Shown here in pieces: positions 35,780 to 50,232 of a DNA stretch of 64,000 nt. Position 1 is the first letter of the stretch; every line of letters begins with the position of its first letter. The notes under the pieces are model-generated. The model searched no databases and was not told the DNA's origin. It worked only from the letters and a program-made list of their open reading frames with translations. Both the position numbers and the translations under genes were made by a program. The stretch lies in contig NZ_JACHDP010000001.1 in the NCBI RefSeq assembly GCF_014201145.1, positions 4,402,001 to 4,466,000 of the forward strand, read 5' to 3'. Source of the DNA: Micromonospora parathelypteridis (GTDB taxonomy: Bacteria; Actinomycetota; Actinomycetes; Mycobacteriales; Micromonosporaceae).

Positions 35780-37999
35780 ATGGCACGCACCCGCATGGCT
35801 GGGGCGCTCGCCGCCGTCCTCGTCCTACCGGCTCTCACCGTCGTCGCCGCGACGTCTCCGGCGTCGGCGGAAGCCGCCGCTCCGAAGGCCGCGCCGCAGA
35901 GTGACATGCGTGAGCTCACTCGGAAGGACTTCACACTGGACGGCCGGCCGATCGAGACGCCCCCGCGGTACCAGCCGCGGATGGGCGCGCGGAAGCAGGC
36001 GCAGGAGGCCGAGACGCCGGCGGTCGGTACGGTCCGTCAGTGGCTCGGCCTCGACGACATCCAGGGCTCGGTCTACCGCAAGGACTACACGCTGCGGGCG
36101 GTCGGTGAGCACATCGAGGTCTGGGTCGCCAACGACCTGTCGTTCCCGGCCGGTGACTGCCGCGCCCAGGTGCCGTCCTCGACGCAGGTCACCGACGCGC
36201 AGGTGAAGCACCTCGTCGACGAGTTCGACACGAACATGTACCCGAAGGAGACCAAGGCCTTCAGCACCCCGCCGGACCGGGACGGCAGCAACGCCCAGAT
36301 CGGGCCGGACGCCGACGGCAACGGTGGCGTCTACACCGGTGCCGGCAACAAGACCGTCACGCTCGTCGACAACGTGCGGGACGACAACTACTACACGTTC
36401 CCGGCCGCCCCGACCTACATCGCCGGGTTCTTCTCCGCGCAGTTCAACGAGCTGCTCGACCGTAACGTGATGACGATCGACGCGTTCGACTGGCTGCACC
36501 GCATGACGCCGAACCCGCCGGACGAGCCGACCGACGACCTCTGCACCAGCCGTGGCGCCCGGCCGAACAGCTACGAGGGCACGTTTGCCCACGAGTGGCA
36601 GCACCTCGCGCACTACTACACCGACCCCTTCGAGACCACCTGGATCAACGAGGGTCTGTCCGACTTCGCCATGTCGCTGACCGGTTACAGCGACTCGAAG
36701 GCCACGGTCTTCGACCGCGGCGCGGAGAGCCACCTCTACTGCTACCAGGGGTTCGGCAGCGTGCAGACGCCGTACAACACGAACCCGCGTGACTGTGGTG
36801 GCCCGGAGAACTCCCTGACCCTCTGGGATGAGAGCCCCAACCCGAACGCGGTGCTCGCCGACTACGGCAACGCGTACTCGTTCATGATGTACCTGTACGA
36901 CCGTTACGGTGCCGACTTCATGTCGCGGCTGCACCGCGATGGTGAGCGGCAGGGCATCGCGAGTCTGGACGCCGAGCTGGAGACCGTCAAGGTTCACGAC
37001 GTCTACCAGGTCATCCACGACTACCAGTCGATGACGCTGCTGGACAAGATCGTCGGCGACGCACGGCTCGGGATCACCCTCGGTGTCTCCAAGAGCCGGG
37101 TGACCACGCCGAGCCTGCGCTCCACCGTCAACCTGGCCAGCACGACGGCGAACGGTACGCCGGGCGTCGCGCCGAACGGTGCCGACTACGTGCAGTTGGG
37201 CGCGGCCAAGGGCAAGCTGCTCAGCGGCCGCGACCTGCGTTCGGTGAAGTTCCAGGGTGCGAAGACCCTGCCCGCCCTCCCGCTGGCATGGACGACCACC
37301 ACCCAGGACCCGGACCGGCCGGGCAACGCCGTTCTCTTCTCCGGCAACGCCAACAGCCTGGACTCGGCGGCCGTCACCTCGGTCACGGTGCCGACCACCG
37401 ACCCGACGCTGCGGTTCGCCGCCAAGTACGGCGCCGAGTTTGGCTTCGACTACGGCTACGTGACGGTCTCGACCGACGGTGGCACCACGTACACGGCGAT
37501 CCCCGGCGACCACACCGTCGAGGGGCCGCTCGGCCCGGCGCTGAACGGTACGACCGTCGGCTTCGAGGCCCGTTCGTACGACCTGTCGGCGTACGCCGGA
37601 AAGAACGTGCTGCTCGGCTTCCGCTACGTCAGCGACGGTGGCGTCAACGAGGGCGGCCTGCTGCTCGACGACATCACCCTCGGTGGGAAGACGCTCAGCG
37701 ACGGCAGCAGCCTGACCCCGTTCGACTCGCCCACGGAGATCCGGCCGACCGCGGTCAAGAACTGGAACCTGCGGCTCGTCGGCATCGACGAGAAGCACTC
37801 GATCGCCTGGCAGTTCGAGTCCAACGGCAAGTCCGAGGTGACGATCGGCAAGCTGGAGTTGGCGGTGCTGGACGCGTTCCCCAAGGTCGTGGCCATCGTG
37901 GCGTACGACGACCCGACCGAGCAGGTGGCGCAGTACGCCCCGTACAAGCTCACCGTGAACGGCGTGGTGCAGCCGGGGGGTAACAGCTCGCTGAGCTGA
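35780..37999 (+). CDS. Secreted HExxH metallopeptidase (M6/immune inhibitor A-like)
   Basis: A protein of 739 residues, signal peptide ending SPASAEA, propeptide-like region to about 140, catalytic part with HEWQH at about 271-275 followed 18 residues later by NEGLSDFA (third ligand Glu), then C-terminal beta-sandwich domains (about 480-680, YVTVSTDGGTTYTAIPG, a MAM/jelly-roll-like fold as in immune inhibitor A proteases). It is a secreted zinc endopeptidase; substrate unknown. A GGAGG lies 6 bases before the ATG and TTTAAAGATCATC elements precede it. Confidence 0.87.
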   Translation: MARTRMAGALAAVLVLPALTVVAATSPASAEAAAPKAAPQSDMRELTRKDFTLDGRPIETPPRYQPRMGARKQAQEAETPAVGTVRQWLGLDDIQGSVYRKDYTLRAVGEHIEVWVANDLSFPAGDCRAQVPSSTQVTDAQVKHLVDEFDTNMYPKETKAFSTPPDRDGSNAQIGPDADGNGGVYTGAGNKTVTLVDNVRDDNYYTFPAAPTYIAGFFSAQFNELLDRNVMTIDAFDWLHRMTPNPPDEPTDDLCTSRGARPNSYEGTFAHEWQHLAHYYTDPFETTWINEGLSDFAMSLTGYSDSKATVFDRGAESHLYCYQGFGSVQTPYNTNPRDCGGPENSLTLWDESPNPNAVLADYGNAYSFMMYLYDRYGADFMSRLHRDGERQGIASLDAELETVKVHDVYQVIHDYQSMTLLDKIVGDARLGITLGVSKSRVTTPSLRSTVNLASTTANGTPGVAPNGADYVQLGAAKGKLLSGRDLRSVKFQGAKTLPALPLAWTTTTQDPDRPGNAVLFSGNANSLDSAAVTSVTVPTTDPTLRFAAKYGAEFGFDYGYVTVSTDGGTTYTAIPGDHTVEGPLGPALNGTTVGFEARSYDLSAYAGKNVLLGFRYVSDGGVNEGGLLLDDITLGGKTLSDGSSLTPFDSPTEIRPTAVKNWNLRLVGIDEKHSIAWQFESNGKSEVTIGKLELAVLDAFPKVVAIVAYDDPTEQVAQYAPYKLTVNGVVQPGGNSSLS

Positions 38000-40386: not shown

Positions 40387-40580
40387 CAGGTGTCCTCTCG
40401 TCGATGTGTTCGCTGCCGACGTTATCGACGATTGCGGAAGGAGCGCTTCCGCAATGGCAGGTGAGTTCGAAGAAGTCGGCCCGCCTGGCGAAATAGCTGC
40501 GTACGCCAACTGGATGCTTGCGATAGCAACAAAATGAAGCGACCATGGCATCCACGTCCATCGACGCATTGGAGTTGCGC

Positions 40581-40907
40581 ATGCGAGCAAGAGCAGCCCG
40601 GGCCGGCGCAGTGCTGACCATGTCCGCGATCCTGACCGCCGGGCTCGGTTTCCTGGCCTCTCCCGCATCGGCGCAGGAGTCCGGCCTGACCTTCTACAGT
40701 GGCAACTTCACCACGGCGCTCGCCAACTTCCCGGCGCCGACCGGTGCCTGCACGCCGCTGCCCCCGACCGCCGACAGTCACGTCGGTTGGAGCGGCTTCC
40801 AGGACGTCTTCTTCTACCGGACCCCGGACTGCTCCGGGCAGGTGACGGGTGCGGGCACGCTCCTCACCTACCCCGCCGGGCGCTGGACGAGCTTCCGCGC
40901 CATCTGA
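40581..40907 (+). CDS. Small secreted protein (crystallin/I36-inhibitor-like)
   Basis: A protein of 108 residues with signal peptide ending SPASAQES and a mature domain of about 70 residues with two cysteines and FYSGNF, DVFFYRTPDCSG, YPAGRWTSFRAI, similar to small beta/gamma-crystallin-like or peptidase inhibitor I36 proteins of actinobacteria. GGAG before ATG 40581 favours that start over ATG 40545. Function not established. Confidence 0.7.
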   Translation: MRARAARAGAVLTMSAILTAGLGFLASPASAQESGLTFYSGNFTTALANFPAPTGACTPLPPTADSHVGWSGFQDVFFYRTPDCSGQVTGAGTLLTYPAGRWTSFRAI

Positions 40908-44858: not shown

Positions 44859-44907
44859 CGTCAACTCAGGGTTGACGCAAGGAATGCGTCAACCTATGGT
44901 TGACGCA
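44859..44907 (+). promoter_or_regulatory. Promoter with two embedded palindromic operators and predicted leaderless start
   Basis: TTGACG (44872-44877) and TATGGT (44895-44900) are 17 bases apart; a start 7 bases after the -10 falls on the A of the ATG at 44907. Palindrome 1 (44859-44877, CGTCAAC-N5-GTTGACG) covers the -35; palindrome 2 (44885-44907, arms TGCGTCAACC and GGTTGACGCA around TAT) covers the -10 and the start codon. Centres are 28 bases apart. A repressor bound to both would close the promoter. Confidence 0.75.
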
Positions 44908-45656
44908 TGACAGATCCTCTTCAGATCGGTAGCACCGTCAAGCTCGACGACCTGATCCAGGCGATCAAAACGGCGCACAGCGACGCACTCGACCAACTCA
45001 CCGACGCGGTCATCGCCGCCGACCACCTCGGCGAGGTGGCCGACCACCTGATCGGACACTTCGTCGACCAGGCAAGGCGCTCCGGCGCCTCCTGGACCGA
45101 CATCGGACGCAGCATGGGGGTCAGCAAGCAGGCCGCCCAGAAGCGCTTCGTGCCGAAGGCGACCGACGCGGCCGCGCTCGACCCCAACGCTGGCTTCGGC
45201 CGGTTCACCCCCCGGGCCCGCAACGTGGTGATCGCCTCGCAGGAGGAGGCCCGCGCCAGCGGAAACGCCGAGATCGGCCCCGAGCACCTGGTGCTGGGCC
45301 TGCTGGCCGAGCCGGAAGCACTGGCCGCCAGGGTGATGGCTGGTCGCGGCGCCACCCCCGAGGCGGTACGGGAGGCGGTCGGCGCCGTCCTCCCACCGAG
45401 GGTCGAGCAGGTTCCGGACCTCATCCCGTACGACGCGCGCGGCAAGAAGGCGTTGGAGCTGACCTTTCGGGAGGCGCTGCGCCTCGGGCACAACTACATC
45501 GGCACCGAGCACATCCTGCTCGCCCTGCTGGAGCAGGAGGACGGTGCCGGCGTGCTCACCAACCTCGGCCTGGACAAGGCGGCGGTCGAGACCGATCTGG
45601 CCGCCGCCCTCGCCGCGGCCGTCAAAGCCGCCGCGACGGATGGCGACGTCGGGTAG
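44907..45656 (+). CDS. Clp N-terminal repeat protein with HTH, likely self-regulated
   Basis: A protein of 249 residues: an N-terminal helical/HTH part (residues about 20-82) with SGASWTDIGRSMGVSKQAAQKRF, then two Clp N repeats (about 97-165 and 170-240) with FTPRARNVVIASQEEARASGNAEIGPEHLVLGLL and GKKALELTFREALRLGHNYIGTEHILLALLEQEDGAGVLTNLG. No ATPase module is present. Such proteins may sense or adapt Clp substrates. The gene starts directly at a predicted transcription start, inside palindromic operators, suggesting autorepression. Confidence 0.88.
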   Translation: MTDPLQIGSTVKLDDLIQAIKTAHSDALDQLTDAVIAADHLGEVADHLIGHFVDQARRSGASWTDIGRSMGVSKQAAQKRFVPKATDAAALDPNAGFGRFTPRARNVVIASQEEARASGNAEIGPEHLVLGLLAEPEALAARVMAGRGATPEAVREAVGAVLPPRVEQVPDLIPYDARGKKALELTFREALRLGHNYIGTEHILLALLEQEDGAGVLTNLGLDKAAVETDLAAALAAAVKAAATDGDVG

Positions 45657-45849: not shown

Positions 45850-48800
45850 TTGAGAAGTTCCTTTGGACGACTGGTTCGGCGGACCCTGGGAGCTGCCGTC
45901 GTCCTGACCGTGGCCGGTGGAATGCTCGCCGCGCCAGCGTATGCCGAGCCACCGACCCCCGCCGACCGACAACGTTGCGTCGACCTTCTGCTGACCGGCG
46001 GGCCGGAAGTTGCCCGCGCCGCTGAGCTGGCGTTGACCGGCTCGGACGCCGACCTGCGGGCCTTCCTGGACACCGGGTTGGCCGCCGCTCAGGCACACGA
46101 CGACCGGGTCGAGGTGGCGCAATACCAGGCGGCGGGCGGCAGCACCCTGCGCAGCGCCGCCGAGGCCGTTCTGGCCGGCTCACCCGCGGATGTCCGCGCC
46201 TTCCTCGACAGTGGCTACGAGGAACCGTTGAACATCGACATGCGGATCAAGTTGGGTCAGGTCATCGCCGTCAGCGGACCACAGGTCAAGGCCGCCGGGC
46301 AGACCGCGCTGGGCGGCACCCCGCAGGATGTCCTGACGTTCTTCTACCTGGGCCTCGACCAGGCCCGGCAGCTCGACGACCGGATCCGGATCGCGCAGAT
46401 CATCAGCGCCGGCGGCCCCACGGTCAAGGCGGCCGGCCAGCAGGCCCTCAACAGTGGCACGGGCCAGGACCTGCGGGAGTTCCTGATCGCCGGGCAGAAC
46501 GTGGCGCGGGCCCGCGACCAGGAGATCAGCACGCTCTCCCTGCTCGTCAGCCGGGCCAAGGAGGCGGGTGAGCTCGCGGCCGAGGAGACCGAGGCAGCCA
46601 AGCTCGCCTCGGCCCAGGCGGTGGAGGCATCCCGGCTGGCCAAGGAGGCCGCCGAGCGCGCGAAGGCCGAGACCCAGGCCGCGCAGAACTCCGCCGAGCG
46701 GGCGTCGCGGGCTGCGGCCCGGGCGGCCGACGCGGCGGCCCGCGCGGCGGACGCGGCACGGACCGCGGTCAGCGCGTCGAAGGCAGCGAACAACGCCGCC
46801 CGACTCGCCTCGAACGCCGCGGCTCGAGCCGCCTCGGCCGCGACTCTCGCCGGTCAGGCGGCATCCAAGGCGTTCGGCGCGGCCGCCGCGGCGGCGACCG
46901 ATGCGTCGAAGGCTGAGGCAGCCCGGCAGGCCGCCGCAACCGCGCGGAAGGTGGCAACGGACGCGCGTAAGGCAGCCGACGCCTCCAGGGCGGCGGGCAA
47001 CGCGGCGCTGGCCGCGAGCGGGGCAGCCGTGAGCGCGGCCAACGCCGGGGCGAACGCGGCTGCCGCGGCTGCCGCGGCAGCCGCCGCCGGCGGGCAGTCA
47101 AACGTGGCTGCGGCGGAGGCGGCGCGAGCCCGCGCGGCCGCAGAGGCCGCGCAGCGTAACGCGGCTGCGGCTACCCGTGCGGCCAACGAGGCCGAACGGT
47201 TCGCCCGGCAGTCGGCGCAGGCAGCCAATCAGGCCTACCAGGCGGCGATGGACGCGGCGGCACACGCAACTGCCGCCGCCGCGGCGGCCGATGACGCGGC
47301 GGCGCACGCTGGTGACGCCGCGACCGCCGCGGCCAAGTCGACCCAGCACGCGGCGGGAGCGCTGGCCGCCGCCAACACCGCCACCGATGCGGCGAACCAG
47401 GCCGCCGCCGTGGAGGAGGCCGCGCGGGTCGCCGACGTGGAGCGGCTGGCGGCACAGACCGAGTTCGGCGTGCAGGGCGCGAAGGAGGCCCGGCTCGCCG
47501 AGCAGATTGAGCTGGCGAGCGCTGCGGACGACGCGGCCGAGGAGGCCCGGCTGGACGCGCAGACGCGGCAGTGGTTGACCGAGGCCAGCGCGCCGGATGC
47601 ATCCTCGGAGACCGTCCTGTCCAGCGGCCGACTCGCGGCCGCGCGACTCGTCCGCACCGGCGGAGAATGGACCCAGAAGGCGGCTGCGGAGGCCCTCGCG
47701 GGTTCCGAGGCCGACCTGCGTACCTTCCTCTCCAGCGGCCGAGCCGTGGCGGCGGACGAGGACGACCGCGCCCGGGTGCGACACATCGGCGCCCTGGGCA
47801 AGCCCGCCCTGCTCGACGCCGCCAAGGTGGCGCTCGCCGGTGACCACGACGACGTGGAGCAGTTCCTGCTGACCCGGGAGTACGCGGGCAAGGAGCAGGA
47901 CGACCGCATCAAGATCGGCCAGTTGATCACCGCCGGTGGGCCGACGATGAGGACGATGGGGCAGGCAGCGCTCAACGGGACCGAGGCTGCCCGGCACGCG
48001 TTCCTGATGACCGGGCAGTACGCCGCGGCCGAGACCGACGACCGGATCAAGGTCGGCCAGATCATCTCGGCCGGCGGCCCCGAGGTGAAGTCCGCAGGGC
48101 AGGTCGCCCTCGAAGGATCACGGACCTACCTGAAGGATTTCCTCGCCGACGGGCAGTTCCGGGCGCAGCGACGGGATCTGGAGGCGGTCACCCACGTGGC
48201 GCGGGTACGCGGGTTGGTCGCTGAGGCGGCCGGTTCTGCCGCCAACGCGCGCAAGGACGCCGCCGAGGCGGCGCGGGTGGCGGCGGTGGCTCGGGCAGCG
48301 GCCGCGGATGCGGCGCGCTACGCCCAGGAGGCCCAGCAGGCGGCCAGCCAGGCCGCAGGCTACGCCACACAGGCGCAGCAGTCGGCCCAGGCAGCGGCGG
48401 CATCGGCGATTCAGGCCGCGCAGTCGGCCCAGGTCGCCAAGGCCGCGGCCGCCGCCGCGAGGCAGAGCGCTGCGAACGCCGCTGCGTCGGCTGCCAAGGC
48501 CACTGACGCTGCGGCACGGGCCAGTGCCTACGCCAGCGCGGCTTACGATGCCGCAGACCGTGCCCGCGCCTCGGCGCTCGCCGCCGGAAGGAGCGCCAGC
48601 CAGGCTGCTGCGGAGGCATCGGCGGCGTTGGCAGCGGCGGTCGACCTGCAGCGGCAGGAGGCGGCCCAGAACCCGGGTGGACCGGCGGACCCGCCGCCGC
48701 TCGATCAGCCCACCGCCCACGATCCGAGGCGATTGGGAAACCAGTTGTTGGGCAACAACGTCCTCGCCCAGGCGGCGCTGGCACTTTGGGGCGGCAACTG

Positions 48801-49212
48801 TTTCATCGCCGCCAAGCAGATCATCTGCACCGATGTGGACACACCGAACGGTCGCCCCATGACGGTTGGCGATTACCTGCTCTACCCGGACTCCCGCCAG
48901 AAGCTCACGGAGGAGTTGGCCGCGGAGGCCGCAGAGCGGGCCGCGATGCGGGCAGCGGGCGTGGACGCCAGCACCTACGGCCCCGACCTCCTCGAACATG
49001 AGGCGCGGCACTCGGACCAGTGGCAGTATTTCCCGCCAAACACATTCCTCAGCATGTACTTCCTCGGAACTGGCGCCTCCTACCTCCTGACGGGCACTGA
49101 CGGGAACGGCAACCCCTGGGAGATTGGTGCCAACCCGTACAAGGGCGGATACTGGGGACCCGGTAAGTCAATCGTTGACTGGTCCAAGTGCTGGATCATC
49201 GTCTGGTGTTGA
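45850..49212 (+). CDS. Exported giant ALF-repeat, alanine-rich protein with C-terminal HEARH domain; candidate polymorphic toxin
   Basis: A protein of 1,120 residues from TTG after GGGGGAG; signal peptide ending APAYAEP. Two similar halves: four ALF-type repeats (about 50-230; SDADLRAFLDTG, HDDRVEVAQ pattern) plus an Ala-rich coiled coil (about 235-570), then four ALF repeats (about 590-785) and a second Ala-rich coil (about 790-945). After a Pro-rich hinge a separate domain (about 957-1120) has four cysteines, LLEHEARHSDQW (His1050 to His1054, zinc-peptidase-like HExxH) and ends IIVWC. Toxin function is inference. A lipoprotein gene follows after 6 bases. Confidence 0.82.
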   Translation: MRSSFGRLVRRTLGAAVVLTVAGGMLAAPAYAEPPTPADRQRCVDLLLTGGPEVARAAELALTGSDADLRAFLDTGLAAAQAHDDRVEVAQYQAAGGSTLRSAAEAVLAGSPADVRAFLDSGYEEPLNIDMRIKLGQVIAVSGPQVKAAGQTALGGTPQDVLTFFYLGLDQARQLDDRIRIAQIISAGGPTVKAAGQQALNSGTGQDLREFLIAGQNVARARDQEISTLSLLVSRAKEAGELAAEETEAAKLASAQAVEASRLAKEAAERAKAETQAAQNSAERASRAAARAADAAARAADAARTAVSASKAANNAARLASNAAARAASAATLAGQAASKAFGAAAAAATDASKAEAARQAAATARKVATDARKAADASRAAGNAALAASGAAVSAANAGANAAAAAAAAAAAGGQSNVAAAEAARARAAAEAAQRNAAAATRAANEAERFARQSAQAANQAYQAAMDAAAHATAAAAAADDAAAHAGDAATAAAKSTQHAAGALAAANTATDAANQAAAVEEAARVADVERLAAQTEFGVQGAKEARLAEQIELASAADDAAEEARLDAQTRQWLTEASAPDASSETVLSSGRLAAARLVRTGGEWTQKAAAEALAGSEADLRTFLSSGRAVAADEDDRARVRHIGALGKPALLDAAKVALAGDHDDVEQFLLTREYAGKEQDDRIKIGQLITAGGPTMRTMGQAALNGTEAARHAFLMTGQYAAAETDDRIKVGQIISAGGPEVKSAGQVALEGSRTYLKDFLADGQFRAQRRDLEAVTHVARVRGLVAEAAGSAANARKDAAEAARVAAVARAAAADAARYAQEAQQAASQAAGYATQAQQSAQAAAASAIQAAQSAQVAKAAAAAARQSAANAAASAAKATDAAARASAYASAAYDAADRARASALAAGRSASQAAAEASAALAAAVDLQRQEAAQNPGGPADPPPLDQPTAHDPRRLGNQLLGNNVLAQAALALWGGNCFIAAKQIICTDVDTPNGRPMTVGDYLLYPDSRQKLTEELAAEAAERAAMRAAGVDASTYGPDLLEHEARHSDQWQYFPPNTFLSMYFLGTGASYLLTGTDGNGNPWEIGANPYKGGYWGPGKSIVDWSKCWIIVWC

Positions 49213-49218
49213 GCGAAA

Positions 49219-49704
49219 TTGTCGACTAAACCACGGATCCGGGCGGTGAGTGTCCTGCTGACGCTCACCGCCCTGGCGGGGCTCTCCGCCTGCACCCCGG
49301 CGGACAAGCCGCTGACCGCACTACGAGTCGTTGACGGGCAGCCGGTCCTGGTTGTGGCGGAGTGTGCCGTCTTCACAGCGACCAGGATCGCCGTCTTCAA
49401 CGAGGGCACGCCGACCGGGAAGTGGGCGATCGAACGGGAGGGGACCGAGGAGCTCGCGGCGGTGACCCTGTTGCAGCCACCGCCGGGCTGGAAGGTCGCT
49501 GAGCAGTCACTCGTCGCGTTGGAGCCCGACACCCTGTACGCGGTCACCGCTTATGGCAGTCAGAACGATGCCGCTCCCATCGACTTCACCCTGGGCGAGG
49601 TGACCAGGCTCGGGCCGGATCAGGTCCTCGTCAACGACGGCGGCACCAAGCGGAAGGCGATTACCGAGACCGCCTTCCGCGACCGAGCCAAGAAGGCCTG
49701 CTGA
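49219..49704 (+). CDS. Small lipoprotein, possible immunity partner of the ALF-repeat protein
   Basis: A protein of 161 residues from a TTG start without a strong ribosome site, 6 bases after the preceding stop, so probably coupled. Signal peptide with lipobox LSAC (Cys about 25). The mature part is a beta-rich domain of about 130 residues ending in Cys (RDRAKKAC), with one internal Cys (VVAECAVF). No family recognised. Membrane-anchored outside location suits protection against an exported effector, but this is inference from position. Confidence 0.72.
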   Translation: MSTKPRIRAVSVLLTLTALAGLSACTPADKPLTALRVVDGQPVLVVAECAVFTATRIAVFNEGTPTGKWAIEREGTEELAAVTLLQPPPGWKVAEQSLVALEPDTLYAVTAYGSQNDAAPIDFTLGEVTRLGPDQVLVNDGGTKRKAITETAFRDRAKKAC

Positions 49705-49713
49705 CGCGGTCGG

Positions 49714-50232
49714 TCAGGAGACCTCGGAGAAGCCGTACCGCAGGGCGTGCTCCGGATCGGACGGGTCGAGCTGGCGCACGCCCGCGTCGGCGAGCCGCTT
49801 GTTGACCTCGTCGAGCTGCTCGCGCACCAGTCGGGCCTCCTCCTCGGTGACCCGACCCCGGTGCGGCTTGCCGGCGTGCTCCAGCGTGCCGTAGTCGATC
49901 TTCTCGGCGCTCTTACGGGCCTTGGGTGGGCGGACCCGCTCGGCCGTCTTCAGCAGCTGCGCCATCGGCACGTCGGTGGCCATCGCGTCGAACTCGCTGG
50001 CGGTGAGCACCACCCGGCGGGGCTCGCCGCCGCCGTGCCGGTCGTGGATCTCCACCACCGCCACGTCGAGGGCGGCGTCGTCGATGTTCTCCACCTCGCC
50101 CGGGGTGGCGTCCAACTGCACGGGCCCGGCGACCAGGTCCGGGTGCTCCAGCACGACGACGCGTACCACCTCGTCGTCCTGCTGCAGGACCGTGCCGGTG
50201 AAGTCGGAGACGTGGATCGTCTTCTTGCCCAT
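49714..50232 (-). CDS. Conserved actinobacterial hypothetical protein
   Basis: A protein of 172 residues, acidic, cytosolic: KKTIHVSDFTGTVLQQDDEVVRVVVLEHPDL at the start, a beta-rich middle, and a basic C-terminal segment (RPPKARKSAEKIDYGTLEH) followed by HRGRVTEEEARLVREQLDEVNKRLADAGVRQLDPSDPEHALRYGF. The last part looks like a small helical binding module. I cannot assign a function. It converges with the lipoprotein gene. Confidence 0.75.
   Translation of the reverse strand: MGKKTIHVSDFTGTVLQQDDEVVRVVVLEHPDLVAGPVQLDATPGEVENIDDAALDVAVVEIHDRHGGGEPRRVVLTASEFDAMATDVPMAQLLKTAERVRPPKARKSAEKIDYGTLEHAGKPHRGRVTEEEARLVREQLDEVNKRLADAGVRQLDPSDPEHALRYGFSEVS

Follow-up and report, generated by a model that had tools for sequence, protein, structure and literature searches.

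Is the 1,120-residue ALF-repeat protein of Micromonospora parathelypteridis a toxin, and does the lipoprotein gene located 6 nt behind it encode the matching immunity protein? This question is raised by a stretch of 64,000 nucleotides (contig NZ_JACHDP010000001.1, positions 4,402,001 to 4,466,000, referred to as the window) from a genome of 7.01 Mb represented by one contig. In a preliminary description, the two genes had been interpreted as a candidate polymorphic toxin-immunity pair. Both were located as described there, and variable tips, a linked lipoprotein and an HExxH motif followed by a conserved glutamate support this reading at the level of sequence tests. It is likely that the locus encodes an umbrella toxin of Micromonospora, composed of a UmbC core and a metallopeptidase-like tip whose site of action is outside the membrane, where the UmbD-like lipoprotein neutralises it. 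As deduced from sequence comparisons, the scaffold is UmbC, UmbA and UmbB are encoded in the same genome, tips vary among UmbC proteins, and the tip-lipoprotein pair occurs on two scaffold classes. In addition, we infer assembly of the particle with unlinked UmbB and UmbA, metal-dependent activity of the tip, its site of action and its neutralisation.

Umbrella scaffold and candidate partners

Eight stretches of the 1,120-residue protein were matched by the Pfam family ALF (PF03752; E=7e-68). The architecture proposed previously was recovered, namely two duplicated modules, each composed of four ALF repeats and an alanine-rich coil, followed by a proline-rich hinge and a distinct domain featuring cysteines (residues 984, 993, 1114 and 1120; a further one at 43) and the HEARH motif. 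A sequence search against the PDB yielded one match, 8w20_A (also 8w22), covering residues 10–962 (E=6e-125). Entries 8W20 and 8W22 represent the Umb1 particle of Streptomyces coelicolor (Nature 2024, PMC11062931), and chain A fits UmbC1 in length and repeats. By homology, the scaffold is identified as UmbC, the core protein of umbrella toxin particles as described in 2024, an assignment which, like the invariant glutamate E1091 beyond the HEARH motif, extends the earlier reading. As described in PMC11062931, the export signal of S. coelicolor UmbC is of the Tat type, and the immunity gene of UmbC1 lies directly downstream. Moreover, UmbB contacts ALF2–4, 7 and 8 but not ALF6, and the exchange I4Q in ALF2 abolishes binding (PMC11062931). 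Position 4, the single contact position compared, is hydrophobic in ALF2–4, 7 and 8 of the protein studied here and is occupied by alanine in ALF6 (residues in Table 1), which fits the published five-spoke pattern of UmbB binding.

ALF repeats were present in 62 of 160 genomes of the genus. The last 130 residues of 31 UmbC proteins, obtained from the window and 27 further loci (six found via the lipoprotein search, the second UmbC of the source genome and 20 chosen strong ALF matches), formed 15 clusters in this non-random sample, from which frames under 600 aa (L056) were dropped. Hence, related ALF stalks carry other tips, and the C-terminal domain is not constant.

Furthermore, a family of small genes adjoins umbC in at least 15 of these 27 loci (ORFs of 90–330 aa within 5 kb; a lower bound, the UmbB G135:C31 inside L081 being left uncounted). 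This family matched the UmbB chain 8w20_B, with E=2e-10 for one member and E=5e-28 for the family profile. The source genome features one intact UmbB (C1:1030165-1030674, E=1.4e-66, VED motif present), located approximately 3.4 Mb from the window umbC in record coordinates. Neither umbC nor umbA was seen in the neighbourhood of this free-standing gene, and this neighbourhood recurs in G162. Four UmbA-like proteins were detected in the source genome, none of them encoded beside the window umbC. All four feature a Trypsin domain in which the typical His and Ser motifs are missing (broken triad), and three contain FG-GAP or Tachylectin domains. UmbA has been reported without the usual trypsin His/Ser motifs (PMC11062931). 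Two of the four were compared with UmbA1 (8w20_C) and matched at E=3e-55 and 5.5e-44.

A second UmbC is encoded at C1:5.974 Mb (L020:7955-11593, plus strand). Its tip differs from the window tip and clusters with that of G003 (L075); the overlapping downstream gene (L020:11560-12096, plus strand) was assigned to no Pfam family. A trypsin-like FG-GAP protein matching the UmbA chain 8w20_C (E=3e-55) is encoded nearby, and the adjoining UmbB copy (L020:7475-7816, plus strand) is degenerate.

Eight of the ten genomes carrying a window-type tip on UmbC were searched for partners, and each encodes one or more UmbB and three or more UmbA-like proteins. In these eight genomes (the source genome and seven others), no umbB or umbA adjoins the window-type umbC; therefore, a particle would have to be built from distant genes. 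For the window umbC, no UmbB was found within ten genes, the distance by which the 2024 survey defined its loci (PMC11062931), which is a definition of survey loci and not of particle function. Missing linkage, together with the degenerate UmbB beside the second UmbC, would also be explained if the window-type lineage no longer builds umbrellas and releases a free secreted toxin. This explanation appears unlikely, as the UmbB-contact position is hydrophobic in precisely ALF2–4, 7 and 8, all eight genomes hold UmbB and UmbA-like proteins, and a relative in Actinoplanes xinjiangensis has umbB directly upstream.

Tip domain and linked lipoprotein

No Pfam or NCBIfam family was matched by the tip. 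In the 19 tips aligned, the motif residues H, E and H as well as S99, Q101, W102, E135, A138, G143 and Y145 (tip numbering) are invariant, and so are two of the four tip cysteines; the remaining two show conservation among the eight UmbC-type tips in alignment A4. E1091, a possible third metal ligand, follows the second motif histidine by 37 residues. In the best AlphaFold2 model (mean pLDDT 83.5, pTM 0.77; most of the final 23 residues below 50), HEARH is located on helix 91–102 and the late glutamate on helix 133–138. In the PVC-metallopeptidase signature HExxHxxQ-E, the histidines are placed on the second and the glutamate on the third helix (PMC3482391). The zinc-peptidase-like character suggested earlier is in line with the separate helices carrying HExxH and the later glutamate in the model; a match to a solved fold was not obtained.

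Profile comparison by hhalign related the tip to a family of standalone proteins with the motif HExRHxxQY (97.8%, E=1.2e-12). The latter family in turn weakly matched the eCIS core (PVC-metallopeptidase) profile (72.9%), as did five of nine members individually (best E=0.0039). PF13699 itself was matched by none of 13 tips. Motif and profile similarity suggest a metallopeptidase fold for the tip; it is named metallopeptidase-like, and a proven member of no peptidase family, because its direct comparison with the eCIS core was weak and no solved fold matched. The standalone proteins (L118–L127, L002) share the pattern HExRHxxQY...FExxAG..GGY, occur in Micromonosporaceae and have no Pfam or NCBIfam name. 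It is possible that they represent the relatives from which the toxin tip arose.

A search with the tip alignment matched 43 of 354 genomes of the family, 20 of them strongly (E<1e-9). These strong matches form the C-terminal end of three scaffold types, comprising ten UmbC-type proteins (including two genes truncated at contig ends, G066 and G135, the G135 piece showing no ALF repeat), three RHS-type and six secreted Fn3-rich proteins, plus one remnant (G070). The 23 weaker matches cover only approximately positions 89–148; the 11 examined (L002, L118–L127) are short frames with the HExRHxxQY motif and no visible scaffold. Tip relatives were also found in Streptomyces and Sphaerisporangium. 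A near-unique tip, as indicated by one protein match of a single-sequence query and occurrence in 2 of 61 genomes, was thereby ruled out; the apparent uniqueness arose because the single-sequence query and the genomes sampled were limiting. Six RHS-type loci were available, three from the family tip search and three from a search reaching other genera. Assignment to this type is based on a Pfam RHS match in five of the six, whereas L147, which is in pieces, is RHS-like by eye and by its likeness to L146. Similarly, five of the six Fn3-type proteins matched Pfam fn3, and the fragment G259 was assigned by eye. Among secreted Fn3-rich proteins, L132, L134, L135, L136 and L138 end in this same HExxH...E domain and have no lipoprotein nearby. 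L132, L135, L136 and L138 additionally matched DUF4185/DUF5005, and the His-Glu spacing is shorter in L134–L138.

The downstream protein is a lipoprotein, as had been proposed, and its lipobox reads LSAC (Cys25). Besides Cys25, conservation extends to two cysteines, one of which is located at or near the C-terminus. Its model comprises a beta-sandwich and a C-terminal helix (pLDDT 85.8), with weak matches to Fn3-like structures. Linkage was scored with a lipoprotein HMM over all stop-to-stop frames of the fetched loci. A lipoprotein gene was found directly behind the tip in all ten UmbC-type genomes (G000, G162, G183, G160, G066, G135, G156, G085, G367, G256), which belong to several genera and represent every UmbC-type strong match of the independent tip search. 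The same holds for five of the six RHS-type loci (G129, G186, L146, L147, L148), three of which lie outside Micromonosporaceae. The candidate start is located 4–12 nt past the tip stop in nine UmbC loci of Micromonospora, Salinispora and A. xinjiangensis, and 1 or 22 nt past it in Spirilliplanes. Moreover, tip and lipoprotein distances are correlated over all 15 linked pairs (Mantel r=0.90, p=0.0001, the minimum reachable with 9,999 permutations; G066, G085, G135, G129, G256 and G367 represented by L139, L141, L140, L144, L143 and L142). Relatives of both genes in other species keep the gene order and the motifs, and chance is therefore excluded for the ORF pair. GC content at the third codon position is 0.86 in both genes.

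A lipoprotein homologue was detected in 35 of 160 genomes of the genus. Twenty loci were fetched, of which seven contain the tip, two hold remnants at the site corresponding to that of the window, and 11 are standalone, eight of the latter occupying a common site that features a MerR-like gene. One standalone lipoprotein, in Salinispora, is 65% identical to the tip-linked copy of the same genome, as would be expected of an orphan immunity gene. The MerR-site loci are L060–L066 and L070, the source-genome paralogue being L062:6085-6654 (minus strand); in six of the eight, a protein of approximately 380 aa ending in an NCLDQGVKC stretch is encoded nearby. In Streptomyces sp. WM4235 (L147:5351-6420), the RHS-like gene carrying the tip is fragmented and its tip prematurely terminated, while the lipoprotein frame behind it is open, as would be the case for a retained immunity gene.

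The chromosomal site is marked by two flanking genes outside the system (Table 1). The Clp_N gene is also a neighbour in L051–L053 and at the remnant sites L059 and L068, and the 172-aa gene in L051–L054, L059 and L068. At this site, G034 holds a lipoprotein remnant only and G070 remnants of tip and lipoprotein only; therefore, the pair was lost there. Two other genes of the window were checked as partners of the umbC-like gene and dropped, namely a small secreted ORF (40545-40907) and an InhA-like protein (35780-37999). The latter, encoded on the plus strand, is secreted, contains an HEWQH motif and an InhA-like MAM domain, and showed no link to the umbC locus.

Table 1. Features of the umbC-like locus and its flanks, in window positions
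Feature	Position	Strand	Basis or remark
umbC-like gene for a predicted secreted ALF-repeat scaffold and its metallopeptidase-like tip	45850..49212	+	ORF, TTG start, 1,120 aa
Putative signal peptide, residues 1-32	45850..45945	+	By-eye reading; twin Arg 10-11, probable cut after AYA
ALF repeats 1-4, residues 40-221	45967..46512	+	Pfam ALF; position 4 = V/I/I in ALF2/3/4
Ala-rich coil 1, residues 222-592	46513..47625	+	46% Ala in sampled stretch; aligns with coiled-coil part of UmbC1
ALF repeats 5-8, residues 593-775	47626..48174	+	Pfam ALF; position 4 = A in ALF6, I in ALF7 and ALF8
Ala-rich coil 2, residues ~776-936	48175..48657	+	54% Ala in sampled stretch
Pro-rich hinge, residues ~937-956	48658..48717	+	By-eye reading
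Tip, HExxHSxQW...E metallopeptidase-like domain, residues 957-1120 (164 aa)	48718..49209	+	Alignments, model
HEARH motif, residues 1050-1054 (H1050/E1051/H1054)	48997..49011	+	H, E and H identical across the 19 tips aligned
E1091, possible third metal ligand	49120..49122	+	Invariant in 19 aligned tips; on helix in model
Lipoprotein, candidate immunity protein (UmbD-like)	49219..49704	+	ORF, TTG start, 161 aa
Flanking gene with Clp_N repeats, outside the system	44907..45656	+	Pfam PF02861; marks chromosomal site
Flanking 172-aa gene, outside the system	49714..50232	-	Recurring neighbour; marks other side of site

Proposed mode of action and alternative explanations

Based on the published particle and the features described above, the following mode of action is proposed. 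The eight ALF repeats would close into a ring to which five UmbB adaptors bind, and UmbA pseudo-trypsin lectins would insert into UmbB and recognise the target cell. Guided by these lectins, the particle would dock on a related actinomycete and expose, at the end of its coiled-coil stalk, the C-terminal tip, presumably a cysteine-containing zincin-like domain (HExxH and later glutamate). There, the tip would most probably cleave a component of the victim's wall or a target exposed on the outside of its membrane. In the producer, the lipoprotein, anchored to the external side of the cell's own membrane, would bind the tip and block it. Immunity proteins are usually located where the toxin acts. 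Action at the surface is favoured by the lipoprotein nature of the candidate immunity protein, a feature shared with some VgrG2b-type metallopeptidase toxin loci.

Several observations weigh against this interpretation. Regarding the particle, umbA and umbB do not adjoin the window-type umbC, and the alanine at position 4 of ALF6 is milder than the tested glutamine, one contact position having been compared. Regarding the tip, the five models spread from pLDDT 83.5 to 67.8 (82.7–67.8 for the four below the best), Foldseek and VIA-align searches with the tip model revealed no solved metallopeptidase resembling it, and the direct profile comparison with the eCIS core reached 8.8%. Regarding the pair, the lipoprotein HMM found no lipoprotein behind the tip in the fetched RHS-type locus G273 or in any of the six Fn3-type loci (G083, G132, G096, G082, G118, G259), the lipoprotein family occurs alone, without tip or remnant, in 11 of 20 fetched loci, and shared species ancestry would also raise the Mantel r.

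Alternatively, the toxin could act in the cytoplasm, with the lipoprotein intercepting it at the surface or blocking its entry. A deaminase domain is found in S. coelicolor UmbC1 and would need access to the cytoplasm; a surface interceptor would likewise be a lipoprotein. The cysteines, two of them invariant across the 19 tips and two more conserved in UmbC-type tips, rather suit an oxidising environment outside the cell. In addition, lipoprotein placement is unusual for cytoplasmic toxins because, within the collection described by Zhang et al. (PMC3482391), Imm65 is the sole lipoprotein immunity protein. Cytoplasmic action is accordingly regarded as rather improbable.

Moreover, instead of being the toxin, the tip could be a peptidase that processes or matures the particle, with the lipoprotein as its regulator or anchor. 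PVC-metallopeptidases with the HExxHxxQ-E signature are described as mostly releasing peptidases (PMC3482391), the tip signature HExxHSxQW...E resembles theirs, and standalone relatives weakly match the eCIS core. Against such a role, the tip is the last domain, leaving no further toxin to be released, unrelated domains occupy its position in other UmbCs, and C-terminal PVC-metallopeptidases are considered likely toxins (PMC3482391), so that this explanation appears distinctly improbable.

That the lipoprotein is an unrelated housekeeping gene located downstream by chance, as its family's standalone occurrence at one shared site in eight of the 11 standalone loci, including the source-genome paralogue L062, could suggest, is extremely improbable in view of its position behind the tip in all ten UmbC-type genomes from several genera and in five of six RHS-type loci, three of these outside Micromonosporaceae, and of its tracking of tip divergence.

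Besides the umbrella toxin with an externally acting tip and a protective lipoprotein, a wider proposal, whose chances appear evenly balanced, can be formulated. A so far undescribed family of metallopeptidase toxins acting at the surface would, together with the lipoprotein gene, constitute one cassette moving between UmbC and RHS scaffolds; the umbrella genes of Micromonospora would be split over the chromosome, with the free-standing umbB and unlinked umbA serving the orphan umbC; and standalone lipoproteins would represent immunity kept by non-producers.

The pair on UmbC and RHS scaffolds offers a ready test of toxin-cassette movement between delivery systems. A toxin of this kind may work without passing through the membrane, so that the open problem of umbrella toxin entry would not arise for it, and a lipoprotein blocking a metallopeptidase, if confirmed, would be a natural inhibitor worth solving. 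If umbrella genes are indeed split over the chromosome, surveys requiring linkage would miss such particles.

Relation to known systems

The umbrella scaffold is already known, also outside Streptomyces: the 2024 survey describes umb loci in other actinobacterial orders, and UmbB of Actinoplanes philippinensis was tested (PMC11062931). The published umbrella experiments, as far as described in the main texts, concern Streptomyces, and the present locus adds an orphan umbC and a free-standing umbB in one genome. The preliminary description had considered that no ALF-repeat protein with such a tip and partner was described. This view needs revision for the stalk, which is the published UmbC, and holds for tip and lipoprotein in the main texts of PMC11062931 and PMC13274773, where 'peptidase', 'metallo' and 'lipoprotein' are not mentioned, the supplementary toxin tables lying outside this search. 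Literature searches on umbrella toxins or ALF repeats with Micromonospora, on ALF with metallopeptidase, and on polymorphic metallopeptidase toxins with lipoprotein immunity revealed no such toxin. The tip family is thus undescribed in the literature searched, Pfam, NCBIfam and PADLOC, and may be among the 77 toxin families of the 2024 paper.

The closest structural likeness is to UmbC/UmbD of the Umbrella systems (S. coelicolor Umb1–3; PMC11062931, PMC13274773), which, as described there, share export, which is predicted for the window protein from its N-terminus, eight ALF repeats (2x4), a coiled-coil stalk, a variable C-terminal domain, a small gene directly downstream, and UmbB plus pseudo-trypsin UmbA in the genome. 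The window umbC differs from these systems in its large distance from umbB and umbA, in the metallopeptidase-like tip and in having a lipoprotein as candidate immunity protein. RHS-repeat polymorphic toxins of actinomycetes carry the same tip, usually with the lipoprotein behind it, on an RHS instead of an ALF scaffold.

Among metallopeptidases, the PVC-metallopeptidase/eCIS core family (PF13699) shares the HExxHxxQ...E signature, and its C-terminal versions are described as likely toxins (PMC3482391); the tips differ in their lack of PF13699 matches and in the weak direct profile similarity reported above. Likened by description, Tox-MPTase1–5 are small HExxH tips on polymorphic toxins (PMC3482391). 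The Pfam search of the tip gave no credible match. Pfam may include some Tox-MPTase1–5 members.

With regard to the partner gene, Listeria Mtz/Tim, again likened by description, combines genes for a secreted metalloprotease and a lipoprotein in a Gram-positive organism (PMC8235301). This pair of a metzincin and a TIMP-like protein differs in being phage-derived and not a polymorphic toxin, and its protease is said to cleave the lipoprotein (PMC8235301). The nearest tested parallel found, judged by analogy, is VgrG2b with PA0261 (Tpe/Tpi; PMC6899460). As far as described there, VgrG2b is an antibacterial HExxH metallopeptidase toxin active in the periplasm and hence outside the cytoplasm, and its cysteine-containing immunity protein is located in the envelope and predicted to be a lipoprotein in Enterobacteriaceae; it differs from the Micromonospora pair in its delivery by Type VI secretion and its occurrence in Gram-negatives.

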